A DNA stretch of 25,047 nt from a virus, in IMG/VR virus record IMGVR_UViG_3300005293_000051, positions 1 through 25,047 of that record. The stretch is one strand, 5' to 3'. This document shows, piece after piece, positions 3,851-23,112 of this stretch. Positions within the stretch are counted from its first letter, which is position 1; each line of letters opens with the position of its first letter. The position numbers and the translations under genes were made by a program. The notes beneath the pieces are model-generated. The model had not been told where the DNA came from. It ran no database searches and saw only the letters and a program-made list of their open reading frames with translations.

Positions 3851-3892
3851 GGCGTGTCGGACAACGGCGGACACGCCGCCCAACCGTAGCCT
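3851..3892 (+). promoter_or_regulatory. Late promoter-like element, copy A (head unit)
   Basis: GGCGTGTCGG starts at 3851 and TAGCCT occupies 3887-3892, 36 nt downstream. The same geometry recurs at 10493, 22155 and 23071. A perfect inverted copy, GACACGCC, lies at 3870-3877. No -35-like hexamer is present at the usual 17-nt spacing, which suggests dependence on an activator, or a repressor site over a promoter. The scaffold gene starts 44 nt downstream of the hexamer, and T2 lies just upstream. Confidence 0.6.
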
Positions 3893-3936
3893 AAGCCCTA
3901 TTGAACGCCCTTACACCCGACGGAAGGCCCGGTGCG

Positions 3937-4716
3937 ATGCCTGAGAAGCAGCAACGGAAGATGGTCGACATCGATGTAACCGAGACCTCCGCCGTGGACC
4001 ACCCAGCACACCTCGCAGAGGGATGGATCGTTTGCAAGTCCGCAACGGCCAAGGACGTCGAGAGCATCTTCGGAGCCCTCGCTACGGAAGGAAACGCCAC
4101 GATGGCAACCAATGACCAGACGGCCCCAACCGTCGAATCCCTGACCAAAGCCCTGGCAGACAAGGACGCAGAGCTCACCGCAGCGAACGACGCCCTCGCC
4201 AAGGCCACGGCCAAGCCCGAGGAACCCACCAGCCAGGAAGAGATGCTCAAGGCCCTGCCCGAGCCCGTCCGCCTGATGATCCAGAAGACCGAATCCGACG
4301 CCGCCGCCCTCAAAAAGCAGGCCGACGAAGACCGTGCCGAACTCATCAAGGTACGCGACGCCCGCCTGGACGACGCAGCGAAGACCGAAGCAGCGTCCAT
4401 GTTCAAGGCCGTCGCCATTGACACCGACACCGTCGGGCCGGCCCTCCGCCGCCTCGCCCTGGTAGACGCGGACCTGCACAAGTCCGTGACCGAGGCCCTC
4501 AAGGCCGCCGACGCGCAGCTGGAAACCGCCGGCGTCTTCAAATCCTTCGGCAAGGAATCCGACGCAGCCGCGCCGGCCCTGTCCAAGCTGGACACTGCAG
4601 CAGCCGAGCTTATGAAGGCTGACGCAACCCTCACCATGCCAGCGGCAATCGCCAAGGCCGCAGCCCAGACCCCGGCGCTGTACGACGAATACCTCGCAGA
4701 GAAGGCAGGAAAGTAA
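3937..4716 (+). CDS. Capsid scaffold / maturation-type protein
   Basis: I chose ATG 3937 (259 residues) because GGAAGG (3922-3927) lies 9 nt upstream; an in-frame TTG at 3901 has no SD. Residues 1-40 contain ETSAVDHPAHLAEGWIV, resembling the 'VDxPA...W' segment in XkdF-like and other phage head-maturation proteins. From residue 56 on it is a long charged, Ala-rich helical protein (KALADKDAELTAANDALAKA), typical of scaffolds. The N-terminal part is far too short to be a full protease and no catalytic triad is visible. A second start at ATG 4102 with its own SD could yield a shorter scaffold. Position directly before the decoration and capsid genes supports the role. It would guide procapsid assembly and then leave the head. 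Confidence 0.75.
   Translation: MPEKQQRKMVDIDVTETSAVDHPAHLAEGWIVCKSATAKDVESIFGALATEGNATMATNDQTAPTVESLTKALADKDAELTAANDALAKATAKPEEPTSQEEMLKALPEPVRLMIQKTESDAAALKKQADEDRAELIKVRDARLDDAAKTEAASMFKAVAIDTDTVGPALRRLALVDADLHKSVTEALKAADAQLETAGVFKSFGKESDAAAPALSKLDTAAAELMKADATLTMPAAIAKAAAQTPALYDEYLAEKAGK
4102..4716 (+). other. Possible internal translation start (shorter scaffold)
   Basis: ATG 4102 is in frame with the scaffold gene (residue 56) and is preceded by GGAAGGAA (4086-4093). The short product would begin MATNDQTAP and hold only the helical scaffold part. Nested protease/scaffold genes such as lambda C/Nu3 are the known precedent. This is a candidate; the SD is visible but use of the start is not proven. 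Confidence 0.4.
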
Positions 4717-4719
4717 GCC

Positions 4720-5094
4720 ATGGCTATTGAAGAAGGACTCAAGCAGGTTAGCGCCGACGCCGGCGCCGACCTTTCCGCAGCGGCAAACCAGTTCAAGGCC
4801 GTCAAGCTGGACGCCAACGGCGCCGTGGTTCTCTGCTCCGCCATCACGGACGTCACGTTCGGCATCCTCCAGGACGTAGCCGTCGCAGGCAAGGCCGTGC
4901 CCGTAGCGGTAGGCGGCATCTGCAAGGCCAAGGCCGGAGCGACGATCGCCGCAGGCGCCCCCGTAGCGACCAAAGCCGACGGTACCCTCCAGACCGCCGC
5001 AACCACCCAGTATGTCATCGGAGTGGCCCGTTTCGGCGGCGTCTCCGGCGACATTATCTCCGTTCAGCTGCAGCCCGCAGTCCTGAAAGCCTAG
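4720..5094 (+). CDS. Head decoration protein (DUF2190-like)
   Basis: This 124-residue protein starts three bases after the scaffold stop, with AGGAAAG just upstream. It has the compact, Gly/Ala/Val-rich pattern of DUF2190/lambda gpD-like decoration proteins: FKAVKLDANGAVVLCSAITD, ILQDVAVAGKAVPVAVGG, a turn with GATIAAGAPVATKADG, then IGVARFGGVSGDIISVQL. Size and the scaffold-decoration-capsid order fit the family. It should bind the outside of the expanded capsid and stabilise it. The family assignment comes from pattern only. Confidence 0.75.
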   Translation: MAIEEGLKQVSADAGADLSAAANQFKAVKLDANGAVVLCSAITDVTFGILQDVAVAGKAVPVAVGGICKAKAGATIAAGAPVATKADGTLQTAATTQYVIGVARFGGVSGDIISVQLQPAVLKA

Positions 5095-5129
5095 CGGCGC
5101 GAGCCGGATAACCCGAAAGGACCAGAATC

Positions 5130-6107
5130 ATGGCTCAGCCGACCCTCAACAGCCAGCATTACGATGCTGTGCTCACCAACATTTCCGTCGCCTACATGCA
5201 GGCACCGGACAACTACGTCGCCCGCCGGGTATTCCCCGTCGTCGGAGTAGACAAGCAGTCCGGGATCTACTTCAAGTACAACCAGGGCGACTGGCTGCGC
5301 GACGAAGCGAAGAAGCGCGCGGACGCGACCGAGTCAGCCGGGTCCGGCTACTCGACCAGCACGGATAACTACCAGGCCGACGTCTACGCCTTCCATAAGG
5401 ACGTAGGCGAGCAGATCGTTGCCAACGCGACGTCCCCGCTGGCACCCCTGACCGACGCAACGAAGTTCGTCGCGAGCCGCCTCCTGCTCCGCCAGGAAGT
5501 GGACTTTGCCACAACGTACTTCAAGACCGGGGTTTGGGCGACCGACCTCACCGGACACGCATCGACGAACACCGGGTCCAACTTCATCCAGTTCTCGAAC
5601 TACTCAACGTCCACCCCGATCGAGACCATCGACCGGGCCAAAGAATACGTTGTCGGCGTGACCGGTTTCGAGGTCAACACCATGGTTGTCGGGAAGACCG
5701 TTTTCAACGCGCTCAAGAACCACCCGGCCATCATCGACCGCATCAAGTACACATCCTCCGATGTGATCACCGAGCAGATCCTGGCCCGGTACTTCGACGT
5801 CGATAATTTCCTGGTAGCCAAGGCTATCCGGAACACCGCCGCAGAGGGCCAGGCTGACGCGATCAGCTACCTCTACAGCGACGGCATCTTCCTCTGCCAC
5901 GCAGCATCCAACCCGGGCCTCCTGACCCCGTCCGCCGGCTACACGTTCGCGTGGAACGGCATCACGGGCTCATCCGGCCTGGACGTAGGCACCTACCAGA
6001 TCCCGATGCCCCTTGCCAAGGCGACCCGCATCGAGTCGCAGTCCGCATGGGTCAACAAGGTTGTTGCAACCAACCTCGGCGTCTTCATGAACGACGTCCT
6101 CGCCTAA
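5130..6107 (+). CDS. Major capsid protein
   Basis: This 325-residue protein starts at ATG 5130 with GAAAGGA 8 nt upstream. The N-terminal sequence (AYMQAPDNYVARRVFPVVGVD) and the following YFKYNQGDWLRDEAKKRA.GSGYS resemble the 'vfP.v.v....Y..y....f.r' start of HK97-fold coat proteins of the lambda gpE-like kind. A long helix with LLLRQEVDFATTYF follows, then a capsid-like strand and loop pattern. Size, the preceding decoration and scaffold genes, and a strong terminator directly afterwards all support the assignment. There is no N-terminal delta domain like that of HK97 gp5, in keeping with a separate scaffold. Confidence 0.85.
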   Translation: MAQPTLNSQHYDAVLTNISVAYMQAPDNYVARRVFPVVGVDKQSGIYFKYNQGDWLRDEAKKRADATESAGSGYSTSTDNYQADVYAFHKDVGEQIVANATSPLAPLTDATKFVASRLLLRQEVDFATTYFKTGVWATDLTGHASTNTGSNFIQFSNYSTSTPIETIDRAKEYVVGVTGFEVNTMVVGKTVFNALKNHPAIIDRIKYTSSDVITEQILARYFDVDNFLVAKAIRNTAAEGQADAISYLYSDGIFLCHAASNPGLLTPSAGYTFAWNGITGSSGLDVGTYQIPMPLAKATRIESQSAWVNKVVATNLGVFMNDVLA

Positions 6108-6132
6108 CCAGCAGGGACGCACGCTACCGGCT

Positions 6133-6168
6133 AAGCCCCGGGCCGGACACGACCCGGCCCGGGGCTTT
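6133..6168 (+). terminator. Strong hairpin terminator after the capsid gene
   Basis: A perfect 14-bp stem, AAGCCCCGGGCCGG (6133-6146) and CCGGCCCGGGGCTT (6154-6167), closes the 7-nt loop ACACGAC and is followed by TCC. I see no promoter before the next gene, so this hairpin probably attenuates rather than blocks: much capsid mRNA, less connector mRNA. Confidence 0.8.
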
Positions 6169-6205
6169 CCCATACCCCCACCAGAGCTCACAGGAGGACC
6201 CCGCC

Positions 6206-6481
6206 ATGACCCTCACCCCCATCGCCAAACCAGGACCGCCGCCGGCAAGCAAACCGCCTGTCGACCCGATCCTCCTCGAGACCGACGCGGGCCTCATGAT
6301 CGAAACCCCGTACGAATGGCGCGAGTTCTGCGACCCGTGCGGCCTCAAACACCTTGCCTGGGCGGCCCGCCCTTACCGGACCGTCAGCCTGTACGAGGTA
6401 CTAACCTCATACCGCCAGTACACCTGCTACAGCTGCCGCAAGCCCCTCTGGGCGCCCGAGAACGCGCAGACCACCCCATGA
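6206..6481 (+). CDS. Small zinc-ribbon-like protein in the head module
   Basis: ATG 6206 is preceded by AGGAGG (6192-6197), giving 91 residues. The first 30 residues are Pro-rich and probably flexible. CDPC near residue 42 and CYSC near residue 75 form a two-CxxC zinc ribbon, spaced by a compact stretch (LKHLAWAARPYRTVSLYEVL). The stop overlaps the next start (ATGA at 6478-6481). It lies between the capsid and the connector genes; similar small zinc proteins occur there in other actinophages, but I cannot name a role. It may be a structural zinc fold for head assembly, or nucleic-acid binding. Confidence 0.75.
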   Translation: MTLTPIAKPGPPPASKPPVDPILLETDAGLMIETPYEWREFCDPCGLKHLAWAARPYRTVSLYEVLTSYRQYTCYSCRKPLWAPENAQTTP

Positions 6482-6870
6482 GCGGTCCTTGGAACTACGG
6501 CGGAGACCTGAACAACCCCGCCGACCTCGTCCGCTATCTCATCGGCGACACCACCCAGGCCAAGCATTCACCGACGGACACCGAAATCGAGTACTGGATG
6601 ACGGTCAACACCACCGACGGGACCATCGACGCCTACAAGGCCGCCGCCCAGGTAGCCCGGCACCTGGCCACCAGGTTCCGCACGCTGGCGAACAGCCAGG
6701 TCAAGATCGGCGACATGTCCCTCACGAACAACTACGGCACCCTCGCGGACCAGTACATCGACACCGCAGACCGCCTGGACGGCGGAGCGAACGCAGGCGG
6801 CCTCGGCGGCCCCCGCTGGGACACCAGCGTCGCCGGGTCCTTCTCCATGGGCCTCATGGACCACCCATGA
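6478..6870 (+). CDS. Head-tail connector, adaptor-like
   Basis: This 130-residue protein starts at ATG 6478, coupled to the upstream gene by a 4-nt overlap. It begins DLVRYLIGDTTQAKHSPTDTEIEYWM, the usual start of gp6/gp15-type adaptor proteins ('vr.liGD......lsD.ei...l'), followed by a helix with AAAQVARHLATRFRT and a second half ending in an extended tail. The adaptor ring joins the portal to the stopper. Position as the first connector gene after the capsid fits. The identification rests on this motif and the gene order. Confidence 0.75.
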   Translation: MSGPWNYGGDLNNPADLVRYLIGDTTQAKHSPTDTEIEYWMTVNTTDGTIDAYKAAAQVARHLATRFRTLANSQVKIGDMSLTNNYGTLADQYIDTADRLDGGANAGGLGGPRWDTSVAGSFSMGLMDHP

Positions 6871-7259
6871 CCGTCACCAACCCGAACAACTACCAGACCG
6901 TCGAGGACGAGTACCTCGCCGTCATGCCTTCGACGGTCCGCTGCACCCCGGCGACGACGAAGAACGCCTACGGGAAGAGGAGCGCCGGCGGCCCGGCCGT
7001 GGAGTCCCCCGCCTACCTGGAGACCAGCCACGAGTCCTTTACCACGGAGGACGGAGACATTCAGGTCGCGAACGGCCGCGCATTCCTCGGCTACGTCATC
7101 CCGTGGCTGACCGCAGACGATACGTTCCAAGTCCAGGACCTCGCCGGGGCATGGTCAACCGTCACCATGATCGCCGTCGAAGCCAAATACGGTCCCGACG
7201 GCATCCACCACCAAGAAGTCTGGTACGGCGGCCGCGGAACCGTCCGGGGCAGGAAGTAA
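6867..7259 (+). CDS. Head closure / stopper-like connector
   Basis: This 130-residue protein overlaps the adaptor gene by four bases (ATGA). It is beta-rich, with DIQVANGRAFLGYVIPWLTADDTFQVQDLAGAWSTVTMIA in the centre, a pattern seen in gp16-like stopper proteins (SH3-like barrels with a 'D.v...G..w.V..v' end). The tail (HHQEVWYGGRGTVRGRK) is basic. Placement between the adaptor and the gp10-like gene is the standard slot. The call rests on gene order and fold pattern, not on a named motif. Confidence 0.65.
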   Translation: MTVTNPNNYQTVEDEYLAVMPSTVRCTPATTKNAYGKRSAGGPAVESPAYLETSHESFTTEDGDIQVANGRAFLGYVIPWLTADDTFQVQDLAGAWSTVTMIAVEAKYGPDGIHHQEVWYGGRGTVRGRK

Positions 7260-7262
7260 ACC

Positions 7263-7691
7263 ATGGCGGAGATAGAGGTCGCCCGAGTCACCGTCACCGG
7301 CCACGACGACCTCATCCGACTCATGGTCCTCGCCGGCCAGTCCGCCGCGCCCATCCTCGGGCAGACCCTCAAAGAGGGCGCCGACGACATGATGCGCGAG
7401 TCCCAGGAACAGGTCCCCTTCCGCCACGGCCAGCTACGGGAGTCCGGCCGCGTATCGGGGCCCGTCACGCTAGGCGCAGACCTTGTCGTGTTCCTCTCCT
7501 ACGGCAACACCGCCGTCGCGTACGCCCTCTACCAGCACGAGGGCCAGCGGAAAGACGGCACCCACCAGATCCGCAATTACCACAACGGCAAAAAGGGCCA
7601 CTACCTCACGGACCCGGTCAACGACGCCGCACCTACCCTCGGCCCCGCCATCGCGCTCAAGCTAGAGGAACTCATCCGGAGGAGCACATGA
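7263..7691 (+). CDS. HK97 gp10-like neck / tail-completion protein
   Basis: This 142-residue protein has AGGAAG 6 nt before ATG 7263. It shows the family pattern: helical first half with DDLIRLMVLAG and LKEGADDMMRESQEQVPFRHGQLRESG ('....a......vP..tG.Lr.s'), then a strand part with VSGPVTLGADLVVFLSYG and VAYALYQHEG ('.....vgy....YA.y.h.G'), then a tail with H and Y (YHNGKKGHYLTDPV). The motif is clear enough to place it in the HK97-gp10/minor-capsid-like family. It should sit at the head-tail joint or the tail end facing the connector. Confidence 0.75.
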   Translation: MAEIEVARVTVTGHDDLIRLMVLAGQSAAPILGQTLKEGADDMMRESQEQVPFRHGQLRESGRVSGPVTLGADLVVFLSYGNTAVAYALYQHEGQRKDGTHQIRNYHNGKKGHYLTDPVNDAAPTLGPAIALKLEELIRRST

Positions 7692-8140
7692 GCGAGACAA
7701 CCCCCCAACCCATCCAGGACACCGACGGCCACACACCCACAGCGCTGGAGCTCGTCCACGACTACGTCCTCTCCGTCACGCCCGGCGCGGCCAGCGGCAC
7801 GGACCTGTTCATGGCGTACGACCAAGACGCGACCGGCCTGGTCCGCTTCATCGAGGAAACCCCCGGCGACATCCTTCGCACCCATGGCAAGGCCGTAGCC
7901 CTCGAGTTCACCCCGATCACCATCACGGTCCGGGACAACGCCGACGACTACCAGAACGCCAAAGACGAAATCATCCGCCTCCGCTACCGGCTGGCGGCCG
8001 CCGTCGGCTACACCAGCCGCGGCCTGACCATCCTGGACGCCGAACCCCGCGGCACCATCAACCCGATCGGCCGGGACATCAAAGACCGCGAGGCTTTCCA
8101 GGCAGTCTTCGTCATCATGACGGCGCCCAGCTATGAGTGA
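7688..8140 (+). CDS. Tail terminator-like protein
   Basis: This 150-residue protein starts at ATG 7688, coupled by an ATGA overlap. The mixed alpha/beta sequence (YVLSVTPGAASGTDLFMAY, then VALEFTPITITVRDN, then DEIIRLRYRLAAAV, then AFQAVFVIMTAP) matches the 'short helix, long strand, helix, final strand' pattern of tail terminator proteins. As the last neck gene it would cap the tail tube and join it to the connector. The usual next gene, the major tail protein, is not there; a set of small unknown genes intervenes. Assigned by order and general fold. Confidence 0.65.
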   Translation: MSETTPQPIQDTDGHTPTALELVHDYVLSVTPGAASGTDLFMAYDQDATGLVRFIEETPGDILRTHGKAVALEFTPITITVRDNADDYQNAKDEIIRLRYRLAAAVGYTSRGLTILDAEPRGTINPIGRDIKDREAFQAVFVIMTAPSYE

Positions 8141-8396
8141 CCCCAGAGAAGCAGCAGCGGAGGCCCTGGAGTCTTCCCTCCGCGCCATCGACGCGAGCCT
8201 CAGCGTCCTCGTCGTAGCCCGGGAGAACCTGGTCAACGCCCTCCGCACCATCAGCACAGCCCCGGCCAAGGACCCATACCAGACCATGGGGCAGCCGCCC
8301 ATGGAAGGCTGCGAGCACACCGGAGAAGTATTCCCCGCCGGCCAGGGGCGAGGCGTCTGCGACACGTGCGGTGAGGATATACCTTGGGCTGGATAG
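8133..8396 (+). CDS. Small helical protein with C-terminal CxxC
   Basis: This 87-residue protein overlaps the tail terminator gene by eight bases. Residues 1-45 form a helix (REAAAEALESSLRAIDASLSVLVVARENLVNAL). The end carries C-EHTG followed by CDTCGE, so one Cys plus a CxxC could bind zinc. Spacing (C then 17 residues then CxxC) is that of a half zinc ribbon. The stop overlaps the TTG start of the next gene by 13 bases. First member of a chain of small genes inserted in the neck-tail junction; function unknown. Confidence 0.7.
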   Translation: MSDPREAAAEALESSLRAIDASLSVLVVARENLVNALRTISTAPAKDPYQTMGQPPMEGCEHTGEVFPAGQGRGVCDTCGEDIPWAG

Positions 8397-8554
8397 CGTC
8401 AGACCTGAACCCGCGTTGCCGCTGCTGCGGCAAGCTACTCGCCGAAAAAGTAACCCGCCCCTGGACTATCCGCTGCGGCCGCTGCAAGACCCAGAACAGC
8501 GGAGAGGACAGGACCATCCCCGTAACCACCCTCCTCGAAGAAGACCAGCCATGA
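8384..8554 (+). CDS. Com-like zinc-ribbon mini-protein
   Basis: This 56-residue ORF starts at TTG 8384 with GTGAGG (8371-8376) 7 nt upstream and ends in a 4-nt overlap with the next ATG. The core has two Cys pairs: CCGKLLAEK, then a 10-residue gap, then IRCGRCKTQNS. The pattern 'RCxxCGKLL....IRCxRCKxxN' matches the Com family of Mu-like phages, small zinc fingers of which Mu Com activates translation of the mom DNA-modification gene. No mom-like gene is visible. Whether it binds RNA here is inference; it may simply be a coupling or structural zinc protein. The start codon is the least certain part. Confidence 0.65.
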   Translation: MGWIASDLNPRCRCCGKLLAEKVTRPWTIRCGRCKTQNSGEDRTIPVTTLLEEDQP

Positions 8555-8847
8555 CCACCACCCTCTCCCCGGACACGATCACCGAAACGGACATCGTCCT
8601 CACCCAGCAGTGCGAACACTCCGCCCACCACCGCGGCCGTTCCCAGTCCCACGGCAACGGGCCGGCGACTCACTACGCCATCGCCGTCCATGCCTGCACG
8701 GTAGGGGAGGTCCCGACGGTCTATGCGGCCTGCGCGGAATGGGCGGCTTATGTGGTCGCCAAACGGGACGCGTTCTGGCTATGCCCCAGTTGCCAGAAAA
8801 TGGAACTCGGCCACGACATGTGCAGAATCATCGGCCCGATAACTTAG
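8551..8847 (+). CDS. Cys/His-rich small protein
   Basis: I start this gene at ATG 8551 (98 residues), which overlaps the zinc-ribbon gene's stop; a longer in-frame reading from 8371 would cover the whole Com-like ORF and is unlikely. Cys and His residues are many: CEHSAHHRG near the start, HAC, AACAEWAAYV, then CPSCQ and a final C. The last CPSC with the earlier Cys/His could hold one or two zinc ions. There is no good SD (GAAGAAGA), so translation probably relies on coupling. Family not recognised; part of the small-gene cassette. Confidence 0.7.
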   Translation: MTTTLSPDTITETDIVLTQQCEHSAHHRGRSQSHGNGPATHYAIAVHACTVGEVPTVYAACAEWAAYVVAKRDAFWLCPSCQKMELGHDMCRIIGPIT

Positions 8848-8849
8848 GT

Positions 8850-8855
8850 TATGAT
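8850..8855 (+). promoter_or_regulatory. Possible -10 of a leaderless transcript
   Basis: TATGAT (8850-8855) is five of six to TATAAT and lies 6 nt before ATG 8862, so a normal start point would be the A of the ATG. The gene lacks a usable SD, as expected for leaderless mRNA, which is common in actinobacteria. No -35-like sequence is seen 17 nt upstream. This is a weak but specific prediction. Confidence 0.4.
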
Positions 8856-8861
8856 TGATAT

Positions 8862-9032
8862 ATGACAGTAGATCCCGTAGGGCAGCGAAACGGCATGGTT
8901 TGGGTAGACGGCAAAGGGTACGTCCTGATAGCCAAGGCCCACGCCTACGCGGCCCTCGGCCTCAAAGTCCATTGGGACACCGCGGAGCCGGAGGAAACAA
9001 CTAACCCCGGCCTCGCCTACAAAAACGACTAA
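8862..9032 (+). CDS. Small hypothetical protein, possibly leaderless
   Basis: This 56-residue ORF (MTVDPVGQRNGMVWV...) starts at ATG 8862 and stops at TAA 9030. It sits in the gap between two better supported genes, shares their GC-rich codon use, and reads as a compact mixed protein (MVWVDGKGYVLIAKAHAYAA) with an acidic end. No SD is present, but TATGAT lies 6 nt upstream. The SD of the next gene begins 3 nt after its stop. No family recognised; the case that it is real rests on fit in the gap and codon use. Confidence 0.55.
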   Translation: MTVDPVGQRNGMVWVDGKGYVLIAKAHAYAALGLKVHWDTAEPEETTNPGLAYKND

Positions 9033-9049
9033 CCAGGAGCCAAACCCGC

Positions 9050-9286
9050 ATGGCACTAGATCACAACACCAACGAAGTCCCGCAGGCAGACGTCGACGCC
9101 GCCCTCGAGGCCCTCGGCATCAGCCGCGAACGATTCAACGTCATCTCCGAAGTACGCATCCTCCCCAAAGAGGTCCAGGTTTCCGTCTTCGAGACGACGG
9201 AGGACGGCAAGTTCAAAATCCTCACCACCGACATGGGCAACGTAGCCGCCATGGGCATCCGCACCTACAGGATTGTCAAGAAATAA
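9050..9286 (+). CDS. Small hypothetical protein
   Basis: This 78-residue protein starts at ATG 9050 with AGGAG (9035-9039) 10 nt upstream. The first half is helical (QADVDAALEALGISRERFN); the second half alternates strands (VRILPKEVQVSVFETTEDGKFKILTTD). The end is basic (YRIVKK). There are no Cys, TM or catalytic motifs. It lies in the small-gene cassette two bases before the next start. Not recognised. Confidence 0.7.
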   Translation: MALDHNTNEVPQADVDAALEALGISRERFNVISEVRILPKEVQVSVFETTEDGKFKILTTDMGNVAAMGIRTYRIVKK

Positions 9287-9288
9287 CC

Positions 9289-9795
9289 ATGGGCAAGAAA
9301 AAGAAAAAGCCCAAGTACTACGTCGACCTCTTCGATGGGCGAGACGACGAACCGCTGAGCGAGTGGAAGAAATTCAGGTCCCTAAAAAAGGCCGTCGCCT
9401 ACGCGATCAAACAGGAAATCACTGAGGACCGCATCCTCGACTCCGAAGGCCACGCCATCCCGGACCTGGACCTCGACGACCCGAAGTGGTGGAACCACCG
9501 CCGCCTCGAAACCGAATACCACCACGCAGCGTCCGCCAGGGACGTGGCGCGGAGCAACCTCGACCGGGAACGGGATGCCCGCCGCAACTGGCAGGTCACG
9601 ATGATCCGGGCAGGCTACGTCCCCATCGAGCTACTCACCGGACGCCTCATCGGCGTCAGCATCGAGCACACCGGCAGGGACGACAGCACCGTCTACCTAA
9701 CCCTCGCAGGCAACCCAGGTAAGGAAGCATCCCAGTACAGGCAGCGGCCATTCGCCGCATTCCTCCAGGCACTCAACGAAGGACTCGGCAAGTGA
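9289..9795 (+). CDS. Lys-rich-start hypothetical protein
   Basis: This 168-residue protein starts at ATG 9289. Residues 2-8 are basic (GKKKKKPK), followed by VDLFDGRDDEPLSEWKKF, a short helix, and a long charged helical middle (TEYHHAASARDVARSNLDRERDARRNW) that may form a coiled coil. The last third is more globular (RAGYVPIELLTGRLIGVSIEHTG). It has no Cys and no TM segment. It is the largest gene of the cassette and overlaps the next gene by GTGA. Function unknown; the basic start could contact nucleic acid or an acidic partner. Confidence 0.75.
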   Translation: MGKKKKKPKYYVDLFDGRDDEPLSEWKKFRSLKKAVAYAIKQEITEDRILDSEGHAIPDLDLDDPKWWNHRRLETEYHHAASARDVARSNLDRERDARRNWQVTMIRAGYVPIELLTGRLIGVSIEHTGRDDSTVYLTLAGNPGKEASQYRQRPFAAFLQALNEGLGK

Positions 9796-10046
9796 AAGCA
9801 CTCACCTTTGACCAGATCAACCACGCCCAGCATGGCTACCGGGCCGGCATCACCACCCTCCTCGACCTCGGCGGCATCCCCGAACACACCCCGGTAACGG
9901 AACGCGAATGGGTCCTCTTCGACACCAACCAGCACCTCCGCGACATGGGCCTCCAAAAGCCCCTCCCCTGGGGAGCAGACGCCGTCCCCATGTCCGAGAC
10001 GGACCTCCTGGACGTCCTCGAGAAAGCGCAGCGCAAAGCCCGGTGA
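9792..10046 (+). CDS. Small hypothetical protein
   Basis: This 84-residue protein starts at GTG 9792, overlapping the previous stop by four bases. It reads KALTFDQINHAQHGYRAGITTLLDLGGIPEHTP, then a mixed part and a helical end (ETDLLDVLEKAQRKAR). The C terminus overlaps the next start (GTGA at 10043). No zinc or TM motif and no family seen. Tight coupling on both sides makes it likely to be translated. Confidence 0.65.
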   Translation: MKALTFDQINHAQHGYRAGITTLLDLGGIPEHTPVTEREWVLFDTNQHLRDMGLQKPLPWGADAVPMSETDLLDVLEKAQRKAR

Positions 10047-10297: not shown

Positions 10298-10358
10298 CCA
10301 GCACCCGCCCCACCTAAAGACCAACCCAACCCGGTGGGCACGCCGGGCAGGCACGGAC

Positions 10359-10384
10359 GCCGAAGCAACGGTTATTGCTACGGC
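10359..10384 (+). other. Hairpin upstream of the tail-unit terminator
   Basis: GCCGAAGCAA (10359-10368) pairs with TTGCTACGGC (10375-10384) with one A.A mismatch and a 6-nt loop. No T tract follows. It may be an RNA structure at the end of the cassette mRNA, an operator-like dyad, or chance. Confidence 0.35.
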
Positions 10385-10434
10385 GGAATTGAGAATATCC
10401 CCCAAGGAACAGGTGAGGCGAACGGGCCTCTACG

Positions 10435-10480
10435 AAAGCCGGGACCGCGCAAAAACCTTTCAGCGCGCGGGCCCGGCTTT
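10435..10480 (+). terminator. Terminator before the tail unit
   Basis: AAAGCCGGG (10435-10443) pairs with CCCGGCTTT (10472-10480), with an inner CGCGC/GCGCG helix and a loop of about 12 nt. The tail is CCATTTG, a poor T tract. It ends the connector/small-gene unit 12 bp before the second promoter-like element. Confidence 0.7.
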
Positions 10481-10492
10481 CCATTTGCCCCC

Positions 10493-10534
10493 GGCGTGTC
10501 AGAACGCCGCCCGCGACACGCCGGTCTGTATTCT
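10493..10534 (+). promoter_or_regulatory. Late promoter-like element, copy B (tail unit)
   Basis: GGCGTGTCAG starts at 10493 and TATTCT lies at 10529-10534, exactly 36 nt downstream as in copies A, C and D. A perfect inverted GACACGCC is at 10515-10522. Transcription would start near 10541 and reach GTG 10575. It lies right behind a terminator, so it probably drives the tail module. Confidence 0.6.
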
Positions 10535-10574
10535 CCAAGAGACGCATACCATCCACCAGCGGGAAGGGCGAACC

Positions 10575-10751
10575 GTGGCCGCCAAAGCACCGAAATATAA
10601 GGTCCTCAGGGGCCTGAACTACCCGCCGGACAACAAACGGGCCGAGGCCGGCGACGTCGTCGACGACCTGCCCGACTACGCCATCGACCCGCTGCTCCGC
10701 CAGGGCGCCATCGAGCCGGCGGACGATAAGAAACCGGAGCCCGGCAAATGA
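10575..10751 (+). CDS. Small protein before the tail-tube genes
   Basis: GTG 10575 (58 residues) is preceded by GGAAGGG (10562-10568) at 6 nt; an earlier in-frame ATG at 10389 would span the terminator and promoter and is rejected. The sequence (YKVLRGLNYPPDNKRAEAGDVVDDLP, then LLRQGAIEPADDK) matches a type of small acidic protein often found next to capsid or tail genes of actinophages, with 'GLNYP...KRAEAGDVV.DLP...LL.QGAI'. Its role is not established. It is coupled to the next gene by an ATGA overlap. Confidence 0.7.
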   Translation: MAAKAPKYKVLRGLNYPPDNKRAEAGDVVDDLPDYAIDPLLRQGAIEPADDKKPEPGK

Positions 10752-11515
10752 CCTTCCGTCACGGTAGAAGTACAGCCCTCTTCCTCAACCAGATCAACGC
10801 CACGCCCTACTTCAACGCCGGCGACTTTTCCCAGACACTCCTCACCGCGGACGTTACCGTGTGGGGCAACACGGATAAGAACTACATCCCGGGCCAGGGC
10901 GACGCGACGTTCTCCGCGTCCGGTTTTTTCGACGGCGACATTGGCAAGATCGATAAGACCCTCTGGGATCTGAACGAGGCCGCAGCGTCCTACCCGGTCA
11001 CGTACTGCCCGGACGGCGGCTGCGCAGTAGGCAGGAACGCCCGCCTCAGCAGCCTCCTCCAAACGGACATCAGCAACTCCTCGCCGATCAGTTCGGCCGT
11101 GACCCTCAAGCTCAGCGCCCAGGCGAACGGAGGCGGCAAGTTCGGCAGCATCCTCAACGACGCCGCGACCCTCTCCTCCGCGACCATCACCGGCACGACC
11201 GTTGACTCCGGCATCATCGGCGGCAGCACCGCCGGAGGTTTCGTGAACATCCACGTCCCCCTGAACACCCGGACAGCCACCATCAGCGTCAAGGTCCAGG
11301 ACAGCACCAACGGCACCGTCTGGGTCGACCTCGCAGGCGGAGGCGCCCAGGTGGTACCCGCCGGCGTCGCGATAGACGCCACCCATCCGTTCGGACAACC
11401 GACCGCGTACCAGCTGCAAATAGCCGGGACGATCAACCGCTATGTGCGGGCACTCATCACGCCCACCGCAGGCACCGGGAACTTCGTTGCCGTAGTGGCA
11501 CTCGCCCGATACTAG
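10748..11515 (+). CDS. Tail-tube-like protein 1
   Basis: This 255-residue protein starts at ATG 10748. The first 60 residues (FRHGRSTALFLNQINATPYF, then DKNYIPGQGDATFSASGFFDG) match the tail-tube pattern 'HGk...l.l......f.....Kt.I.G..d.TfS..G..D', which the next gene also has. The C-terminal half (residues about 150-255) is Gly/Thr/Val-rich and may be an added Ig-like or outer domain. It is likely a tail-tube subunit, perhaps the main one with a surface domain, or a minor tube or cap variant. The order small protein, tube, tube, chaperones, tape measure fits. Confidence 0.7.
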   Translation: MTFRHGRSTALFLNQINATPYFNAGDFSQTLLTADVTVWGNTDKNYIPGQGDATFSASGFFDGDIGKIDKTLWDLNEAAASYPVTYCPDGGCAVGRNARLSSLLQTDISNSSPISSAVTLKLSAQANGGGKFGSILNDAATLSSATITGTTVDSGIIGGSTAGGFVNIHVPLNTRTATISVKVQDSTNGTVWVDLAGGGAQVVPAGVAIDATHPFGQPTAYQLQIAGTINRYVRALITPTAGTGNFVAVVALARY

Positions 11516-11530
11516 AACAGGAGCACGAAA

Positions 11531-11956: not shown

Positions 11957-11988
11957 CACACCCCACCTAAGAGAAGCGAGTGACCCCC

Positions 11989-17088: not shown

Positions 17089-18956
17089 TGGCCGTAGCAC
17101 TCCGAGGCTATACGCAGGGCACCTCACAGGCGTCCGGGTCGGTGGCCATCACCTGGCCCACCGGCACCATCGCCGGAGACCTGGCCGTCCTCTTCGCCCA
17201 TGACGGCGAGTTCCGCCTCAACCGCGCCGGCGGCCCGACGACATCCGGATGGGTAGGCGCCGGCGAAGGCGCCTGGGTAAAGAAGGTCACGGCCGCGGAC
17301 CTCGCCTCAGCCCTGCCCGTCAACGGCGTGGTCACGTTCCTGCAGACCTTCACCGGAGCAGCCCGCATCGACAGCGTCCGGCAGAACAACGGCCTGCGCG
17401 TACAGCAGGCAGGGTCCGGGCTCCTCGTCACCGCCTACGGCCCGGCGTGGCTGAACTTCATCGTCCCCGGCGCGACCGAGCGCCTAGGAAACCACTTCCG
17501 GTCCGCGACGTTCAACAAGCTGGAATCAACCTGGTTCAAGACCGCAGCGTCCGCCGGATGGGTGGAGCTCACCGGAGGGCGAGACTGGGACTCCAACTAC
17601 TACGCCTACGAGATAGTACCGAGCACGGTCCCGTCCGCCCCGGTCGTTATCGCCCCCATTTCGGCGTCCCAGACGGACACCACCCAGCCCGTCGTTTTCA
17701 CTTGGCTGCACCAGTCCAACTCGAACGCTGACCAGGACGGCGCGCAGATCAAGGTCCGCGCCGTCGGGTCCGGTACCTGGTCCTACGTCCAGTCCGCCGG
17801 GACCATCACGACGACGACCACCACCATGACCCAGACCGCGCAGGCGGCGACGATCAACGCCGGCGTCCTGACCACCGGCACCCAATACGAGTTCACCATC
17901 GCAACGCGCGAGTTTGGTTCCATGGGTGCCGCGTCGTCCCTGTCGACCTTCACCCCGGCGAACAAGCCGACCGTCAACACGATCACGCCCACGGCCACCA
18001 TCGAATCACTCACCCCGTCCATCGCCTGGACCGCGACCATGGGCCTCGGTTCCCAAGACGCCTGGCAGGTCCGGGTCAGCCCGTCCGCGGACCCCAACTC
18101 AGAAACCCCCCTATGGGACTCTGGAGTCGTCCAGGGCAACACGACGACGACCGCGGCCCCGGCGAACGCCGGCTGGACGAACGGCCAAACCCTCTACGCC
18201 TGGGTCCGGGTCCTGCAAACCGGAGGCCTCTGGTCTCCATGGACGAAATCAGCGTCGACGTTCGCCGTCACCTGGACGCCCCCGGCAGCACCGACATCCG
18301 TGGTAGCGGCGAACGTCGCCGGGCAGCCCCTCCAGGCCACGGTCTCCGGCATAGGCGCCGGCTATGACCTGACCATCGAAATGAGCGTCGACGGCGGCGA
18401 GAACTGGGCCCCGGTCAACACCCTCAAAAACCCGGGTACCCCGGTCGTCGCGCAAATACCGCTGGCCGGCTACGGCATCAGTACCATCTTCCGGGCCCGG
18501 ACTTCCGTGACCCTTTCCGACGTTGTCGTCCTCTATTCGGCCTGGGTCCAGTCCGCGGCCCTGGCCTCTACAGACACGAGCTACTACCTGGTCTCCGTAG
18601 ACGGGAACCAGTTCTTCCAGGTCCGCATGGTCCAGGACGCCGTGCACCGGACCGCGCAAGGCGTATCGATCACCTACGGGCACGGAGCGACCCGCGCCCG
18701 GCAGGACCAAACCGTTGCCATGGGCGAGTCGGGAGCGACCACGATACAGGCCAGGACTTTGAATGAGGAGAACGCGATCATTTCCTGGCTGACCGCGCAG
18801 GGCACCTGGTGGCTCCGCTGGGGCCCGGAACGCGGGCCCACCCTCACGGACAAACCAGCTACCCGGATGGCACTGGCAGCACCGATCGAATCAAACCGCG
18901 TCGCACAATTCAACACGGCTTACCGGAACATCACGTTCTCGTGGGTCGAGCAATAG
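17088..18956 (+). CDS. Minor tail protein with Fn3-like domains
   Basis: This 622-residue protein starts at ATG 17088, overlapping the tape measure stop (TAATG). Residues 1 to about 180 form a beta-domain with IAGDLAVLFAHDG. Three Ig/Fn3-like segments follow (starting near 182, 291 and 400, each opening with Pro-rich 'P.aP.v....' and containing W and Y at strand positions). Residues about 495-622 make a C-terminal domain (YYLVSVDGNQFFQVRMVQDA, then TTIQARTLNEENAIISWL). Position right after the tape measure is that of a distal-tail or baseplate component. The N-terminal domain resembles that of the gene at 19419. Attachment to sugars is possible but not shown. Confidence 0.75.
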   Translation: MAVALRGYTQGTSQASGSVAITWPTGTIAGDLAVLFAHDGEFRLNRAGGPTTSGWVGAGEGAWVKKVTAADLASALPVNGVVTFLQTFTGAARIDSVRQNNGLRVQQAGSGLLVTAYGPAWLNFIVPGATERLGNHFRSATFNKLESTWFKTAASAGWVELTGGRDWDSNYYAYEIVPSTVPSAPVVIAPISASQTDTTQPVVFTWLHQSNSNADQDGAQIKVRAVGSGTWSYVQSAGTITTTTTTMTQTAQAATINAGVLTTGTQYEFTIATREFGSMGAASSLSTFTPANKPTVNTITPTATIESLTPSIAWTATMGLGSQDAWQVRVSPSADPNSETPLWDSGVVQGNTTTTAAPANAGWTNGQTLYAWVRVLQTGGLWSPWTKSASTFAVTWTPPAAPTSVVAANVAGQPLQATVSGIGAGYDLTIEMSVDGGENWAPVNTLKNPGTPVVAQIPLAGYGISTIFRARTSVTLSDVVVLYSAWVQSAALASTDTSYYLVSVDGNQFFQVRMVQDAVHRTAQGVSITYGHGATRARQDQTVAMGESGATTIQARTLNEENAIISWLTAQGTWWLRWGPERGPTLTDKPATRMALAAPIESNRVAQFNTAYRNITFSWVEQ

Positions 18957-18968
18957 GAAAGGACCGCC

Positions 18969-19397
18969 ATGACCAGCATCCTCTTCGGGCCCGCCAAAGA
19001 AGGTTTCCTCAAGGGCGAAATCTCCCTGTCGACGGCCACGATCAAAACCTCCCTGGTACGCAGCTACACCCCGAACGCCGCGCACAAGTTCGTCTCCGAA
19101 GTCACCGGCGCCGGAGGCGTCATCGCCTCCACCGCCCCGGCCCTGACATCGAAGACCACCACCCTCGGCGTCTTCGACGCGGCAGATATCACCTTCACCG
19201 CCGTCACGACGAACGCGAACAACCACTACCTCCTGATCTACCAGTCCAGCGCCGTGACCGGAGGCGCCGACGTCGCCGCGTCCGCCCAGCGGATCATCGC
19301 CTGGATCGACACCGGCACCAACCTGCCCGCAGTACCCAACGGCGGAGACGTCAACATCGTCTGGGACAACTCAGCGAACAAGATATTCGCCCTCTAA
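18969..19397 (+). CDS. Small minor tail/structural protein
   Basis: This 142-residue protein starts at ATG 18969 with AAAGGA (18958-18963) 5 nt upstream. The strands (AAHKFVSEVTGAGGVIAST, TTLGVFDAADITFTAVTTN, YLLIYQSSAV, IIAWIDTGTNLPAVPNGGD and a final VNIVWDNSANKIFAL) form a pattern repeated in structural proteins of many phages, generally encoded in tail or virion modules. There are no Cys and no TM. It probably sits in the baseplate region with its neighbours; a precise role is unknown. Confidence 0.7.
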   Translation: MTSILFGPAKEGFLKGEISLSTATIKTSLVRSYTPNAAHKFVSEVTGAGGVIASTAPALTSKTTTLGVFDAADITFTAVTTNANNHYLLIYQSSAVTGGADVAASAQRIIAWIDTGTNLPAVPNGGDVNIVWDNSANKIFAL

Positions 19398-19418
19398 CCC
19401 CGAGGAGGTGAACCCCGC

Positions 19419-21323
19419 ATGGCGGTCGCCCCAAGCCTTGTATCGCACGCCCAAACCACCTGGACGTCGAAGACCAGCCCCAAGACCATCCCCGTCACCG
19501 TCCAGAACGGCGACCTCATCGTTGTGGCCGCCATGGCCGACGGACCCCAACCCGTCTTCGGCATCTCGGGCGGCTCCCTGACCTGGACGCAGCAGCAGCT
19601 AGTCACCGCCGCAGGCTACGCCGAGGCCGTCATCTGGTCCGCGACGGCGACGACCACAACGACGTTCTCCGTCTCCGTATCGAACTCCGGGCCCACCGCC
19701 TACTACGGCGCGTCCGCGACCGTCTGGCGGTACCACGGCGGCATCGGCACGACCGCCCAAGCCCACGGCGACGGCATCGGCATACCCGCCTTCACCAGCA
19801 TCAGCGACGACTCCGCCGTCGTCGTCTACATGGTCGACTACTCCGCGACGTCCGGAGCAGCCAGGACCTGGCGCCCGTACAACGGCACCGCCGCGACCGA
19901 AACCGTCTACGGCCAACTCTCCGGCGAGTACACCTGGTACGGCGCCTACTACCCGGACACCAACGCCGCGACCACCGACAACATGGGCCTCAACACCCCC
20001 GGCGGCCTGACCTATTCGTTCGTGGCCCTGGAAATCAAGAGCACCGCCACCGGCGTCGGGACCTCCTACGCCTACCCGACAGCCCTGACTAACACGGGCG
20101 GATTCGGCGCCCCCACCGTAAGCTACGGCGTGGCCACCCGCATCCCCGTCGGCATCGCCTCCACCGCCACGTTCGGCAACCCCACTGCCCGGGTCGACAC
20201 CTGGCGGCAGATCATCGAGGGAGCATCCTGGCGCGAGGCCGTCACCGCCCACCAACGCACGGTAGGCTTCCGCGGCGAACTCATCGACGCCAACGACAAC
20301 CACGTCATCGACGTCCCCCTCACCGGAGGATCAGTCAGTTTCGACGGCGAGTCAGCAGAGCAGTGGGCCTGCCAAGTAACCATCGCCGGTGAGGAGTGGG
20401 TCCCCCGGAACCCCGGCGACTACCTCGACCCCCGCACCGGCCTGCGTTTCCGCATCTGGTGGCGCCTCATGATCAACGGAGGATTCGTGGACGTCCCCAC
20501 CGGCACGTTCGTCCTCGAGGACCCCCGCATCACCGACGACGGCGCGATCCCCTCCACGTCCGTCCGAGGCCGCGACCCGCTAACCGTTATCCGCCGCGCC
20601 GGCTACGGGTCCTCGGTTATCAGCGTAGGCGGCATGACCGTACCCGCAGCCCTCATCCGCATCATGGGCTCCATCGCCCCCAGGACCCCGTTCAGGATCG
20701 ACGCGACCTCCTACGTCACCCTCCCGGCCACCTATGAACTCACCGGCCAGGACCCCGTCGACGACATGACCAACATCGCCTCCCAGGCCGGCCTCGTAAT
20801 ACGCACGGACCCGGAAGGCCGCGTTGTCTGTTCCCCGAACCCGACACCGCAGAACCTCCGCGCGGACTGGCAGGAAGGCCCGGACTGCCCGGTCACGGAC
20901 CTATCCCGCGCCGTAAACACCTCCCAGATGGTCAACTCCGTCACGGTCGTTTCCACCAACCCCGAAGTCGTCCCACCCATCAGCATCACCGTCGAGGACA
21001 CCGACCCGTCCTCCACCACCTGGATCGGCGGCCCCTGGGGCAAGCGGACCCTGACCATCCGCACCGACAGCATCGCCACGGACGCCGGCGCGAGGTCCAT
21101 GGCCACCGGCATCCTCAACGGCCGCCGCCGCCCGCAGGAGGAAATCAGCATCGAGGTACCGCCCCGCGGAGACCTCGGCTACCGGGACAAGGTATCCCTT
21201 GCCCGATCCATGTCCGGAGTAGCGAACACCTACCGCATCGCTGGCTGGGCCCTGGCGTTCGGTAACGCCCAGGAAGTCACCAAAACCATGACCGTCAAGA
21301 TGATATCGAGGACCCTGGTGTGA
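19419..21323 (+). CDS. Minor tail protein, tail-hub-like
   Basis: This 634-residue protein has AGGAGGTG (19403-19410) 8 nt before ATG 19419. Residues 1 to about 215 form a beta-rich domain (NGDLIVVAAMADG) similar to that of the gene at 17088. From about residue 260 the sequence (TVGFRGELIDANDNHVIDVP, FRIWWRLMINGGFVDVPTG, TSVRGRDPLTVIRRAGY, TYELTGQDPVDDMTNIASQA) has the pattern of DUF5047 / tail hub proteins (gp27-like). It would form the ring at the tail tip to which fibres and the spike bind. It overlaps the next start by GTGA. Confidence 0.75.
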   Translation: MAVAPSLVSHAQTTWTSKTSPKTIPVTVQNGDLIVVAAMADGPQPVFGISGGSLTWTQQQLVTAAGYAEAVIWSATATTTTTFSVSVSNSGPTAYYGASATVWRYHGGIGTTAQAHGDGIGIPAFTSISDDSAVVVYMVDYSATSGAARTWRPYNGTAATETVYGQLSGEYTWYGAYYPDTNAATTDNMGLNTPGGLTYSFVALEIKSTATGVGTSYAYPTALTNTGGFGAPTVSYGVATRIPVGIASTATFGNPTARVDTWRQIIEGASWREAVTAHQRTVGFRGELIDANDNHVIDVPLTGGSVSFDGESAEQWACQVTIAGEEWVPRNPGDYLDPRTGLRFRIWWRLMINGGFVDVPTGTFVLEDPRITDDGAIPSTSVRGRDPLTVIRRAGYGSSVISVGGMTVPAALIRIMGSIAPRTPFRIDATSYVTLPATYELTGQDPVDDMTNIASQAGLVIRTDPEGRVVCSPNPTPQNLRADWQEGPDCPVTDLSRAVNTSQMVNSVTVVSTNPEVVPPISITVEDTDPSSTTWIGGPWGKRTLTIRTDSIATDAGARSMATGILNGRRRPQEEISIEVPPRGDLGYRDKVSLARSMSGVANTYRIAGWALAFGNAQEVTKTMTVKMISRTLV

Positions 21324-22150
21324 GCGACGACATCGACGTCCTCGGAGGCATGCTAAGCCCCGCAGGCAACAGCGACGGGGCGAACGTCCCCGCCTACTTC
21401 GACACCGGCATCGTCACCGCCCTGGTCGACGCCAACCACGTCCGAGTCAACCTCGGAGACAAGCAGGTCCTCTGCTACGTACCGCAGACCGGCGCGATCG
21501 CCCCGGCCGTAGCCTCGGCAGTCCAGGTATGCGTCCAGGAGAACACCTACTTCCTGGCCGCCATCCTATCCGGCGGCACCGCCGTCCCCCCTGTGGAAAT
21601 TACCAACGCCACCAGCCTGTACACCCCGGATACGCTCGTGAAACGGGACGCCTTCGGCCGCGCCCAGTTCATCCAGCCCTCCGGCCAGTACGACGCGGCA
21701 CCCAAGGTCTACGTGGACGAGATGATCGGCTCCCGGCCGTTCGGGCACATGGGCCGGACCGATGGTTTCGCCCTGAACATCAACGCCGTCGTCGGCATGT
21801 CCGCGGCCCAGAAACTCCGCGGCGGGATGACGTTCAACTCCGGCACCTACGCCCTGGTCGTCCCAGCGACCGGCCTCTATATGCTCAACCACCGCGCCTA
21901 CTGGACCGGCGGCACCGGGTACGCCGGCACGTCCAAGCTCCTCAAGAACGGCGGCACCGAAATCGTCGGCAGCTACCTCGCCCAGTGGAAGCAGGACGGC
22001 GCCGACTACACATGGAACAACAGCGTCTGCGTCGACCTCACCGCCGGCGACACCGTCTCCATCTTCATGTCATCCGCAGGCAGCGCCGGGTCAACCTGGG
22101 GCACCACCGGATACAACGGGACCTTCCTTGAGGTACTAGCCCTGTTCTAG
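21320..22150 (+). CDS. Tail tip protein with C1q-like head (receptor-binding candidate)
   Basis: This 276-residue protein starts at GTG 21320, coupled by a GTGA overlap. Residues about 25-85 look like a small OB-type barrel (GIVTALVDANHVRVNLGDKQVLCYVP). Residues about 100-145 connect to the rest (VYVDEMIGSRPFG). The last 125 residues have the C1q/TNF jelly-roll pattern: GMTFNSGTYALVVPATGLYM, then AYWTGGTGY, then CVDLTAGDTVSIFMSSAGS and GTFLEVLALF. Such heads commonly form trimers that bind host surface structures, so this is the best receptor-binding candidate of the window. Confidence 0.75.
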   Translation: MSDDIDVLGGMLSPAGNSDGANVPAYFDTGIVTALVDANHVRVNLGDKQVLCYVPQTGAIAPAVASAVQVCVQENTYFLAAILSGGTAVPPVEITNATSLYTPDTLVKRDAFGRAQFIQPSGQYDAAPKVYVDEMIGSRPFGHMGRTDGFALNINAVVGMSAAQKLRGGMTFNSGTYALVVPATGLYMLNHRAYWTGGTGYAGTSKLLKNGGTEIVGSYLAQWKQDGADYTWNNSVCVDLTAGDTVSIFMSSAGSAGSTWGTTGYNGTFLEVLALF

Positions 22151-22154
22151 CACT

Positions 22155-22196
22155 GGCGTGTCAGGAACCGGACACCGCCCATAACCAGAGTAGCCT
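22155..22196 (+). promoter_or_regulatory. Late promoter-like element, copy C (membrane-protein pair)
   Basis: GGCGTGTCAG starts at 22155, 4 bp after the preceding stop, and TAGCCT lies at 22191-22196, again 36 nt on. The inverted arm is imperfect (GACACCGCC, 22171-22179). ATG 22218 follows 21 nt after the hexamer, with GGAAGGGG between. Confidence 0.6.
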
Positions 22197-22217
22197 CGGC
22201 CGCGGAAGGGGAACCCA

Positions 22218-22640
22218 ATGAGCTACCAGCAACCGCCACTAACGGAACGCATCTGGCATTCCGGGACGTACCTGTTCACCGCCCTCATCGGGCTTTCGAT
22301 CATCATCTGGCCGCCGGCCAACACCGTGGAAAGCACCCTAGGCGCCTTCCTCACCACCGTATGGGCGCTGTTCCTAGCGACCGCCCTGGTCCTGGTACCA
22401 GCGCACATGAAGGGTAAGTACCTTTGGGAGTACGCCCTCCTCCCGCTATGCACCATAGCCCTCTTCGTTGCCCTGGCCGTCGTTTGGGGCAACACCACCC
22501 ACGACCCCACCCTGGTCCCGAGGGCGAGCGCATCATCCGCCCTCCTCTGCGAGCTCATCCGCCACTGGCTATACCTCCATCACCTGATCGGACGCAGTAA
22601 GAAGGCGAACCGACTGGAGGCCCCGTGGACCCGGCATTAA
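22218..22640 (+). CDS. Three-TM membrane protein of the lysis region
   Basis: This 140-residue protein has GGAAGGGG (22204-22211) before ATG 22218. Three hydrophobic segments stand out: residues about 16-34 (GTYLFTALIGLSIIIWP), 42-62 (LGAFLTTVWALFLATALVLV) and 72-91 (YALLPLCTIALFVALAVV). The C-terminal part is soluble and basic (GRSKKANRLE). It could be a holin-like or host-membrane protein, or an unknown inner-membrane protein of the lysis cassette. It overlaps the next gene by 16 nt. No family recognised. Confidence 0.75.
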   Translation: MSYQQPPLTERIWHSGTYLFTALIGLSIIIWPPANTVESTLGAFLTTVWALFLATALVLVPAHMKGKYLWEYALLPLCTIALFVALAVVWGNTTHDPTLVPRASASSALLCELIRHWLYLHHLIGRSKKANRLEAPWTRH

Positions 22641-23062
22641 TCCAGATCATCCTCGGCACCCTCCTTGGCACCGGCGGCCTCGGCGGCACCATAGCCGCCA
22701 TCCGCGGCATCAAAGCCCGCAAAGCTGATACCGTCCCCGCTGTAGAGTCCGAGGCCCGCGCCCAGGTAGCCGACTCCGACGTCACCAAGTACTTCCAGTC
22801 CGAACTCAAGCAGCTGCGCGCCGACAGGGCCGCGGAGCTCAAGCAGCTACGCGCCGACAGGGCAGCGGAGACCACCAAGTTCGAAGCCCAGATAGTCCGC
22901 CTCAAAGACGACGTCATCATGCTACGCAACCACGTCGTCGTCCAGGCCACCGAAGACGCCGAACACATCGACGCCCTCGAGCAGCACATATGGCTGCGCC
23001 TGGGGCCGCCCCCGCCGCAGCGCAAAGGACCCCGCGCGCTACCCCCGCAGATCAGTTCCTAG
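22625..23062 (+). CDS. TM plus coiled-coil protein
   Basis: This 145-residue protein starts at GTG 22625, with GGAGG (22616-22620) only 4 nt upstream, so coupling to the gene before is likely. Residues 5-26 are a hydrophobic Gly-rich segment (LIQIILGTLLGTGGLGGTIA), followed by a charged coiled coil with an exact internal duplication (ELKQLRADRAA twice). The end is Pro-rich. It resembles small membrane-anchored coiled-coil proteins in actinophage lysis regions, which may be spanin-like or holin regulators, but I see no clear motif for either. Function unknown. Confidence 0.7.
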   Translation: MDPALIQIILGTLLGTGGLGGTIAAIRGIKARKADTVPAVESEARAQVADSDVTKYFQSELKQLRADRAAELKQLRADRAAETTKFEAQIVRLKDDVIMLRNHVVVQATEDAEHIDALEQHIWLRLGPPPPQRKGPRALPPQISS

Positions 23063-23070
23063 ACGTCCCC

Positions 23071-23112
23071 GGCGTGGCACTCCCCGGACCGGACCGCAAC
23101 CGGGGTTAGGCT
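23071..23112 (+). promoter_or_regulatory. Late promoter-like element, copy D (endolysin)
   Basis: GGCGTGGCAC starts at 23071 (the most divergent box) and TAGGCT lies at 23107-23112, 36 nt downstream. No inverted arm is clear. CCCC precedes the box as in copies A and B. ATG 23146 follows 33 nt after the hexamer. Confidence 0.5.

Follow-up and report, generated by a model that had tools for sequence, protein, structure and literature searches.

To our knowledge, the control of late transcription is known for few actinobacteriophages. In the activator-dependent late promoters of the P2/186/P4 type, the Ogr site is a TGT-N12-ACA dyad with its centre near -55. WhiB proteins are carried by hundreds of actinobacteriophages. 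In Streptomyces, WhiB needs WhiA in order to bind promoters; the motif of WhiA is GACAC, and the WhiA targets include GTGTC-oriented sites as well (PMC3781837, PMC4850268). For Microbacterium phages, the portion of one report available to us (PMC7302621) describes repeated intergenic motifs, namely an 18-mer in cluster EC, a 30-mer in cluster EI and the SAS and ESAS of EF/K, and describes no such repeated motif for phage ValentiniPuff. In the Arthrobacter cluster AL phages, large insertions interrupt a canonical order of virion genes (PMC5513430). The word promoter is absent from the main text of that paper, and a literature search found no description of the motif presented here. This motif is a four-copy element in a 25,047-base IMG/VR record (IMGVR_UViG_3300005293_000051), hereafter the window. 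Judged from sequence, it is probably the late promoter of a lytic actinobacterial siphophage family, working on the host polymerase with the help of an activator. Conservation, spacing, orientation, synteny, terminator context and the presence of whiB are observed, and from them we infer that the element is active as a promoter, that it acts late, and which activator serves it and how; the case for a promoter is strong, and what we propose for its regulator is offered as a hypothesis.

The window is a fragment of a siphophage late region, with genes for a head-fiber/scaffold protein, the major capsid protein, two major tail proteins, the tape measure, further tail proteins and an endolysin, and without regulatory genes. 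A preliminary description had reported four boxes, each starting exactly 36 nt before the start of a TAnnCT hexamer, and all four pairs lie where it placed them, on the + strand. At P1 the putative activator box, CCCC-GGCGTGTC, occupies 3847..3858 (box start 3851) and the predicted -10, TAGCCT, 3887..3892, a spacing of N28; behind them lie an unknown, scaffold-like gene (phrog_13547, 3937..4716), the head-fiber/scaffold gene (4720-5094) and the major capsid gene (5130-6107). At P2 the putative box, again CCCC-GGCGTGTC, is found at 10489..10500 (box start 10493) and the predicted -10, TATTCT, at 10529..10534, also at N28, ahead of a small conserved gene (10575-10751) and a major tail protein gene (10748-11515) that together span 10575..11515. 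The putative P3 box, GGCGTGTC at 22155..22162, is preceded by CACT in place of CCCC and followed by a predicted -10, TAGCCT, at 22191..22196; by their position only, the two genes behind it (22218-22640 and 22625-23062, together 22218..23062) are putatively of lysis/holin type, and in a family search the first had no match and the second only weak matches to unknown families. The putative P4 box, CCCC-GGCGTGGC with one mismatch, lies at 23067..23078 (box start 23071) and its predicted -10, TAGGCT, at 23107..23112, before an endolysin gene (23146..24765) that matches endolysin and metallo-endopeptidase families. Sites orthologous to P1 and P2 occur in relatives, and P3 and P4 are supported by agreement within the window genome only. 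Elsewhere in the window, 85-2643 is very GC-rich (73-76%) and encodes an 852-aa protein built of short repeats (DARTVTRTTARTPADSAGITD and variants) that matches phrog_12240, and 3513-3776 encodes a small protein with a CxxC motif (CSVCG) and no family match; in phage Kovu the corresponding place is taken by an endonuclease VII gene on the opposite strand.

The setting of the elements agrees with the preliminary description. All four point with transcription, three (P1, P2 and P4) are preceded by CCCC, and the start codons, said to follow at 21-44 nt, come 44, 40, 21 and 33 nt after the hexamers of P1 to P4, with Shine-Dalgarno-like sequence present. All four are intergenic once the true gene starts are applied, which at P1 means ATG 3937, the start supported by homologues, in place of the TTG 3901 chosen by the ORF lister. 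At 15-20 nt P1 and P2 have no -35-like hexamer (best match 2/6), and P3 has a 4/6 match at 16 nt; the TTGACA-like hexamer 16-19 bp before the -10 that defines an ordinary sigma-A promoter was not found as a feature of the element. Most copies come 6-30 nt after the end of a strong terminator-like hairpin, which is what the start of an insulated transcription unit would be expected to show. Before P1 this is an intrinsic-terminator-like hairpin on the + strand at 3798..3824 (GGGAACCTGC-7nt-GCAGGTTCCC followed by CTTTAC; -19.4 kcal/mol), with hairpins of the same type equally placed at most P1 and P2 sites of relatives, and before P2 a terminator-like hairpin on the same strand at 10436..10479 (-27.2 kcal/mol).

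The four-copy spaced element is genuine and far above chance. The pattern GGCGTGNC-N28-TANNCT occurs four times on the forward strand of the window, never on the reverse strand and never with the reversed-pattern control; written as GGCGTG[T/G]C-N28-TAnnCT it likewise has four copies, all on the gene strand. Not one copy of the spaced pattern arose in any of 300 second-order Markov simulations of the window. The find also survives a look-elsewhere correction, in which any 8-mer with one mismatch was allowed at any spacing of 10-50 before TANNCT in 40 simulated windows, since the best simulated count was three (in 4/40 windows) and four was never reached. The 10-mer taken alone is not enriched in the window (35 found against 44 expected), and therefore the signal is the box together with its fixed distance.

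By their capsid and major tail proteins, the nearest isolates are the Arthrobacter cluster AL phages, Ottawa and Kharcho, and the Microbacterium singleton ValentiniPuff, along with a few IMG/VR contigs; megablast of the window against phage records gave no match. The preliminary description had advised a search of relatives, and in these the element stands before the same genes, with the box-to-hexamer distance conserved, in Arthrobacter phages LiSara, Waltz, Shrooms, Edmundo, Wheelbite, Kovu, Ottawa and Kharcho, in ValentiniPuff and in several IMG/VR contigs. A site orthologous to P1 precedes the same gene in the eight Arthrobacter phages, ValentiniPuff, L005, L025, L028 and L037. In the isolates the element, at N28 or N29, lies upstream of both the scaffold-capsid block and the small gene with the major tail protein; a third copy in cluster AL (GGCGAGTC) lies before the portal gene, which is preceded by the element in LiSara, Waltz, Shrooms, Edmundo and Wheelbite, and ValentiniPuff has a copy before its capsid maturation protease gene. 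The annotated start of ValentiniPuff gene 54 (L010 18589) lies upstream of the promoter and is doubtful, because the conserved N-terminus MPGQSPQRRMVDINV begins downstream of the promoter; judged by the sequence, this annotation is probably wrong. No relatives of the window's lysis module were found in IMG/VR, and the element was absent from those relatives of the capsid protein that come from freshwater (GC below 0.6). Among such freshwater relatives, L040, L049, L054, L063 and L103 have no box ahead of the small gene that precedes the major tail protein, and several of them have another similar-looking intergenic stretch there (GTGGTCCCTGCGGCGGTGCGGAT and CGCGCTGCC), which is perhaps a late promoter or leader of their own.

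Spacing counts and alignment bear on the explanation that chance or the shared ancestry of functionless intergenic DNA accounts for the copies. With up to one mismatch allowed in the box, six genomes or fragments contain 18 boxes at N28 before TANNNT, whereas other spacings average 0.32 and the reverse strand 0.61, and with the window excluded the count is 14 against 0.30; six sites (in Ottawa, Kharcho, Kovu, L028, L037 and L302) have N29. In an alignment of 22 sites GGCG.G.C never varies and T at positions 5 and 7 hardly does, most boxes follow a CCCC, the consensus box of the family is CCCCGGCGTGTC, and the -10 is TANNNT in 22/22, with the C of TA-N-N-C-T in 18/22. The core GTGTC, GACAC on the other strand as at WhiA/WhiB-dependent promoters, is present in 19/22, the remainder being GAGTC, GTGGC and GTGCC once each. 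As a rule the aligned sites have no -35 hexamer (best 2-4/6 matches), and the spacer between box and -10 shows weak preferences only and is otherwise unconserved; even the close relative L115 keeps the box, -10 and leader of P2 and not its spacer. A PWM scan of four complete genomes recovers the known sites and almost nothing else, with 2-4 copies per genome, every one at a -10. The cluster AL phages are close relatives whose copies are not independent. Yet box, -10 and distance persist between phages whose proteins are only 28-70% identical and whose capsids are about 45-60% identical, while the spacer and flanks are scrambled, and four different loci in one genome share the element. The fixed-spacing counts and the site alignment thus already contradict chance or ancestry, to which we give a vanishingly small probability.

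Copies of the box in the opposite orientation, overlooked in the preliminary description, are found within three spacers of the window: exactly at 3870..3877 in P1 and 10515..10522 in P2 (GACACGCC on the + strand, the box therefore on the - strand), and imperfectly at about 22170-22179 in P3. They lie at differing distances and are peculiar to the window phage, GACACGCC being found in no relative, L115 included, and they were accordingly rejected as a core part of the element. A hairpin was also rejected as a functional part, the folds of box and spacer being overall no stronger than with shuffled spacers. The inverted copies overlap the -35 to -20 region in P1 to P3 and, together with the presence of TGTC in oriented intergenic sites, would suit an asymmetric repressor operator or stoperator of the kind found in L5-type mycobacteriophages, at which late-gene transcription would be blocked or stopped. 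That alternative, raised in the preliminary description, is not supported by our results and is very unlikely: the copies are tied to a -10 at 28 or 29 bp with none elsewhere, a genome has only two to four of them, and the inverted copies are not conserved. L5-type stoperators are many scattered copies of GGTGGMTGTCAAG in temperate phages with an immunity repressor, and the family box here is CCCCGGCGTGTC. Of 46 phages only Galaxy has an integrase, none being reported for the AL phages (PMC5513430), and ValentiniPuff is listed as lytic (PMC7302621).

We propose a model of late transcription in this phage family that fits these observations. The host RNA polymerase with its housekeeping sigma factor (sigma-A) would read TAnnCT as the -10. 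If this hexamer spans -12 to -7, the 8-nt box falls at -48 to -41, and the preliminary proposal of a -10 with an activator site at about those positions is upheld by the conservation of both parts and of the distance between them. With CCCCGGCGTGTC as its binding site (about -52 to -41), an activator would sit one DNA turn upstream of the -35 position, a usual location for activators in contact with sigma region 4, and by such contact it may hold the polymerase where no usable -35 exists. Each copy would open one set of virion genes (portal or protease, scaffold-capsid, or major tail) or, in the window phage, also the lysis genes, so that a single activator could switch on late blocks even where other genes lie between them. 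The occurrences agree with an activator-dependent late promoter, the element being repeated upstream of portal or protease, scaffold-capsid and major tail genes, and in the window of lysis genes, with a -10, no -35 and the box at N28 or N29. The fixed two-block architecture could also mean that a phage-encoded sigma factor reads the box itself as a remote -35 equivalent and needs no further activator; a small HTH protein of these phages carries the annotation RNA polymerase sigma factor in Edmundo and has a sub-threshold match to Sigma70_r4_2. A spacer of 28 bp, however, exceeds the normal sigma2-sigma4 span by about 11 bp, the 83-aa protein has one HTH only and no region 2 with which to read the -10, and the -10 looks host-type, which leaves a phage sigma factor an unlikely reader of the box.

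The activator of the proposed promoter is most likely encoded by the phage. The non-virion proteins common to Ottawa, LiSara and ValentiniPuff are an SSB, a MarR-like HTH protein and a WhiB-family protein. A WhiB protein (PF02467, Pfam) is encoded in all four complete genomes examined, LiSara, Waltz, Ottawa and ValentiniPuff, as would be seen with WhiA/WhiB-dependent promoters; the Waltz gene is unannotated (L013 12358-12672, record 52275-52589) and is the orthologue of LiSara gp90, and the best solved match of the phage WhiB is to the WhiB chains of entries 8dy9/8dy7. Just upstream of whiB lies the small HTH gene, whose family occurs in exactly the 14 Arthrobacter phage records of the group. 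It overlaps whiB by 4 nt in Ottawa and is separated from it by a 44-codon ORF in LiSara; in ValentiniPuff a different small gene takes its place, also overlapping whiB by 4 nt. No homology to the Ottawa HTH protein is detectable in that of ValentiniPuff, though the box is the same in both, and structure prediction for the HTH protein returned a plain HTH with no informative match. Because the box carries GTGTC, which is complementary to GACAC, the motif of WhiA, and because whiB lies near the small HTH gene, our leading candidate, so far a candidate only, is phage WhiB with a DNA-binding partner, either the neighbouring HTH protein or host WhiA. The element was not found in the WhiB-carrying phages TPA4 and Fruitloop, and therefore WhiB alone does not predict it. 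We tentatively suggest, as a possibility short of a probable one, that phage WhiB and the phage HTH protein (or host WhiA) form a WhiA/WhiB-like bridge on host sigma-A that drives all late genes through the GTGTC boxes.

The same complementarity, and the co-dependent binding of WhiA and WhiB to their target promoters (PMC3781837, PMC4850268), would fit a phage that had copied a host promoter type driven by host WhiA and a host WhiB-type protein alone. We consider this unlikely. Neither 40 genomes of an actinobacterial class, with 7 hits against 12 for the control, nor two whole actinomycete genomes are enriched in the full pattern. In 2.7 Mb of DNA from a sporulating actinomycete, GTGTC or GACAC at a fixed distance from TANNNT, GTGTC-N28-TANNNT included, showed no clear peak, in a test of low power in which the -35/-10 positive control did peak; to that limited degree the result also speaks against our leading candidate for the activator. 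Moreover, the orientation of GACAC is not fixed in Streptomyces targets (PMC3781837). Among bacterial genome contigs, the 32 hits to CCCCGGCGTGTCNG-N25..28-TANNCT were scattered and followed neither host nor spacing, and thus gave no sign of use by prophages or hosts. The lack of enrichment in actinobacterial genomes, with the strand orientation and the neighbouring terminators, further supports a phage-specific late regulon signal, the reading favoured in the preliminary description and borne out by the conserved motif parts and distance before orthologous late genes.

Across all IMG/VR contigs, CCCGGCGTGTC-N28-TANNCT matched 15, of which seven belong to this phage family, several of them newly found, and CCCGGCGTGTC-N29-TANNCT matched 35, mostly through repeated coding matches. 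The scans yielded L025, L115, L120 and L302, all members of the family. L302, picked from the N29 matches for its intergenic position and thus found by DNA motif alone, has its site upstream of a homologue of the small gene and of a major tail protein 36% identical to that of the window. As a marker, the motif can reveal new members of the family from DNA sequence only. In cluster AL the element marks the starts of several virion blocks split by insertions, and it offers a candidate explanation of how these phages could express them. It also provides, in phages amenable to laboratory growth, a defined late promoter, and it points to two neighbouring candidate regulator genes. If the suggested bridge exists, WhiB would serve as dedicated late activator of a lytic actinophage family, the first positive role for phage WhiB proteins.

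The element has points in common with several known systems and coincides with none of them. As in the Ogr/Delta systems of P2, 186 and P4, a few late promoters have no useful -35 and an upstream activator site, and the host RNA polymerase would serve separate late operons through one activator. Unlike those systems, the site is a single asymmetric box ending at -41 with no conserved dyad, inverted GACAC being found only in P1 to P3 of the window at varying distance, and no Ogr-like zinc-finger gene was identified. With the WhiA/WhiB sigma-A promoters of Streptomyces (sepX, ftsZ) the element shares a GACAC/GTGTC core, an activator position upstream of the -35 region and an encoded WhiB protein, here supplied by the phages; it differs in its box of 8-12 bp, its fixed orientation and distance and its lack of enrichment in host genomes. 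Like the L5-like stoperators, the copies are short, keep one orientation, lie mostly between genes and have a TGTC core, but they are few, always linked to a -10 rather than scattered, and found in phages without known lysogeny. The Microbacterium motifs (PMC7302621) are also oriented, lie in short gaps roughly 20-45 bp before start codons and, in cluster EC, begin with a -10-like TAGaCT, whereas the sequences of the EC, EI and EF/K motifs differ from ours and are not built of two blocks with a remote box.
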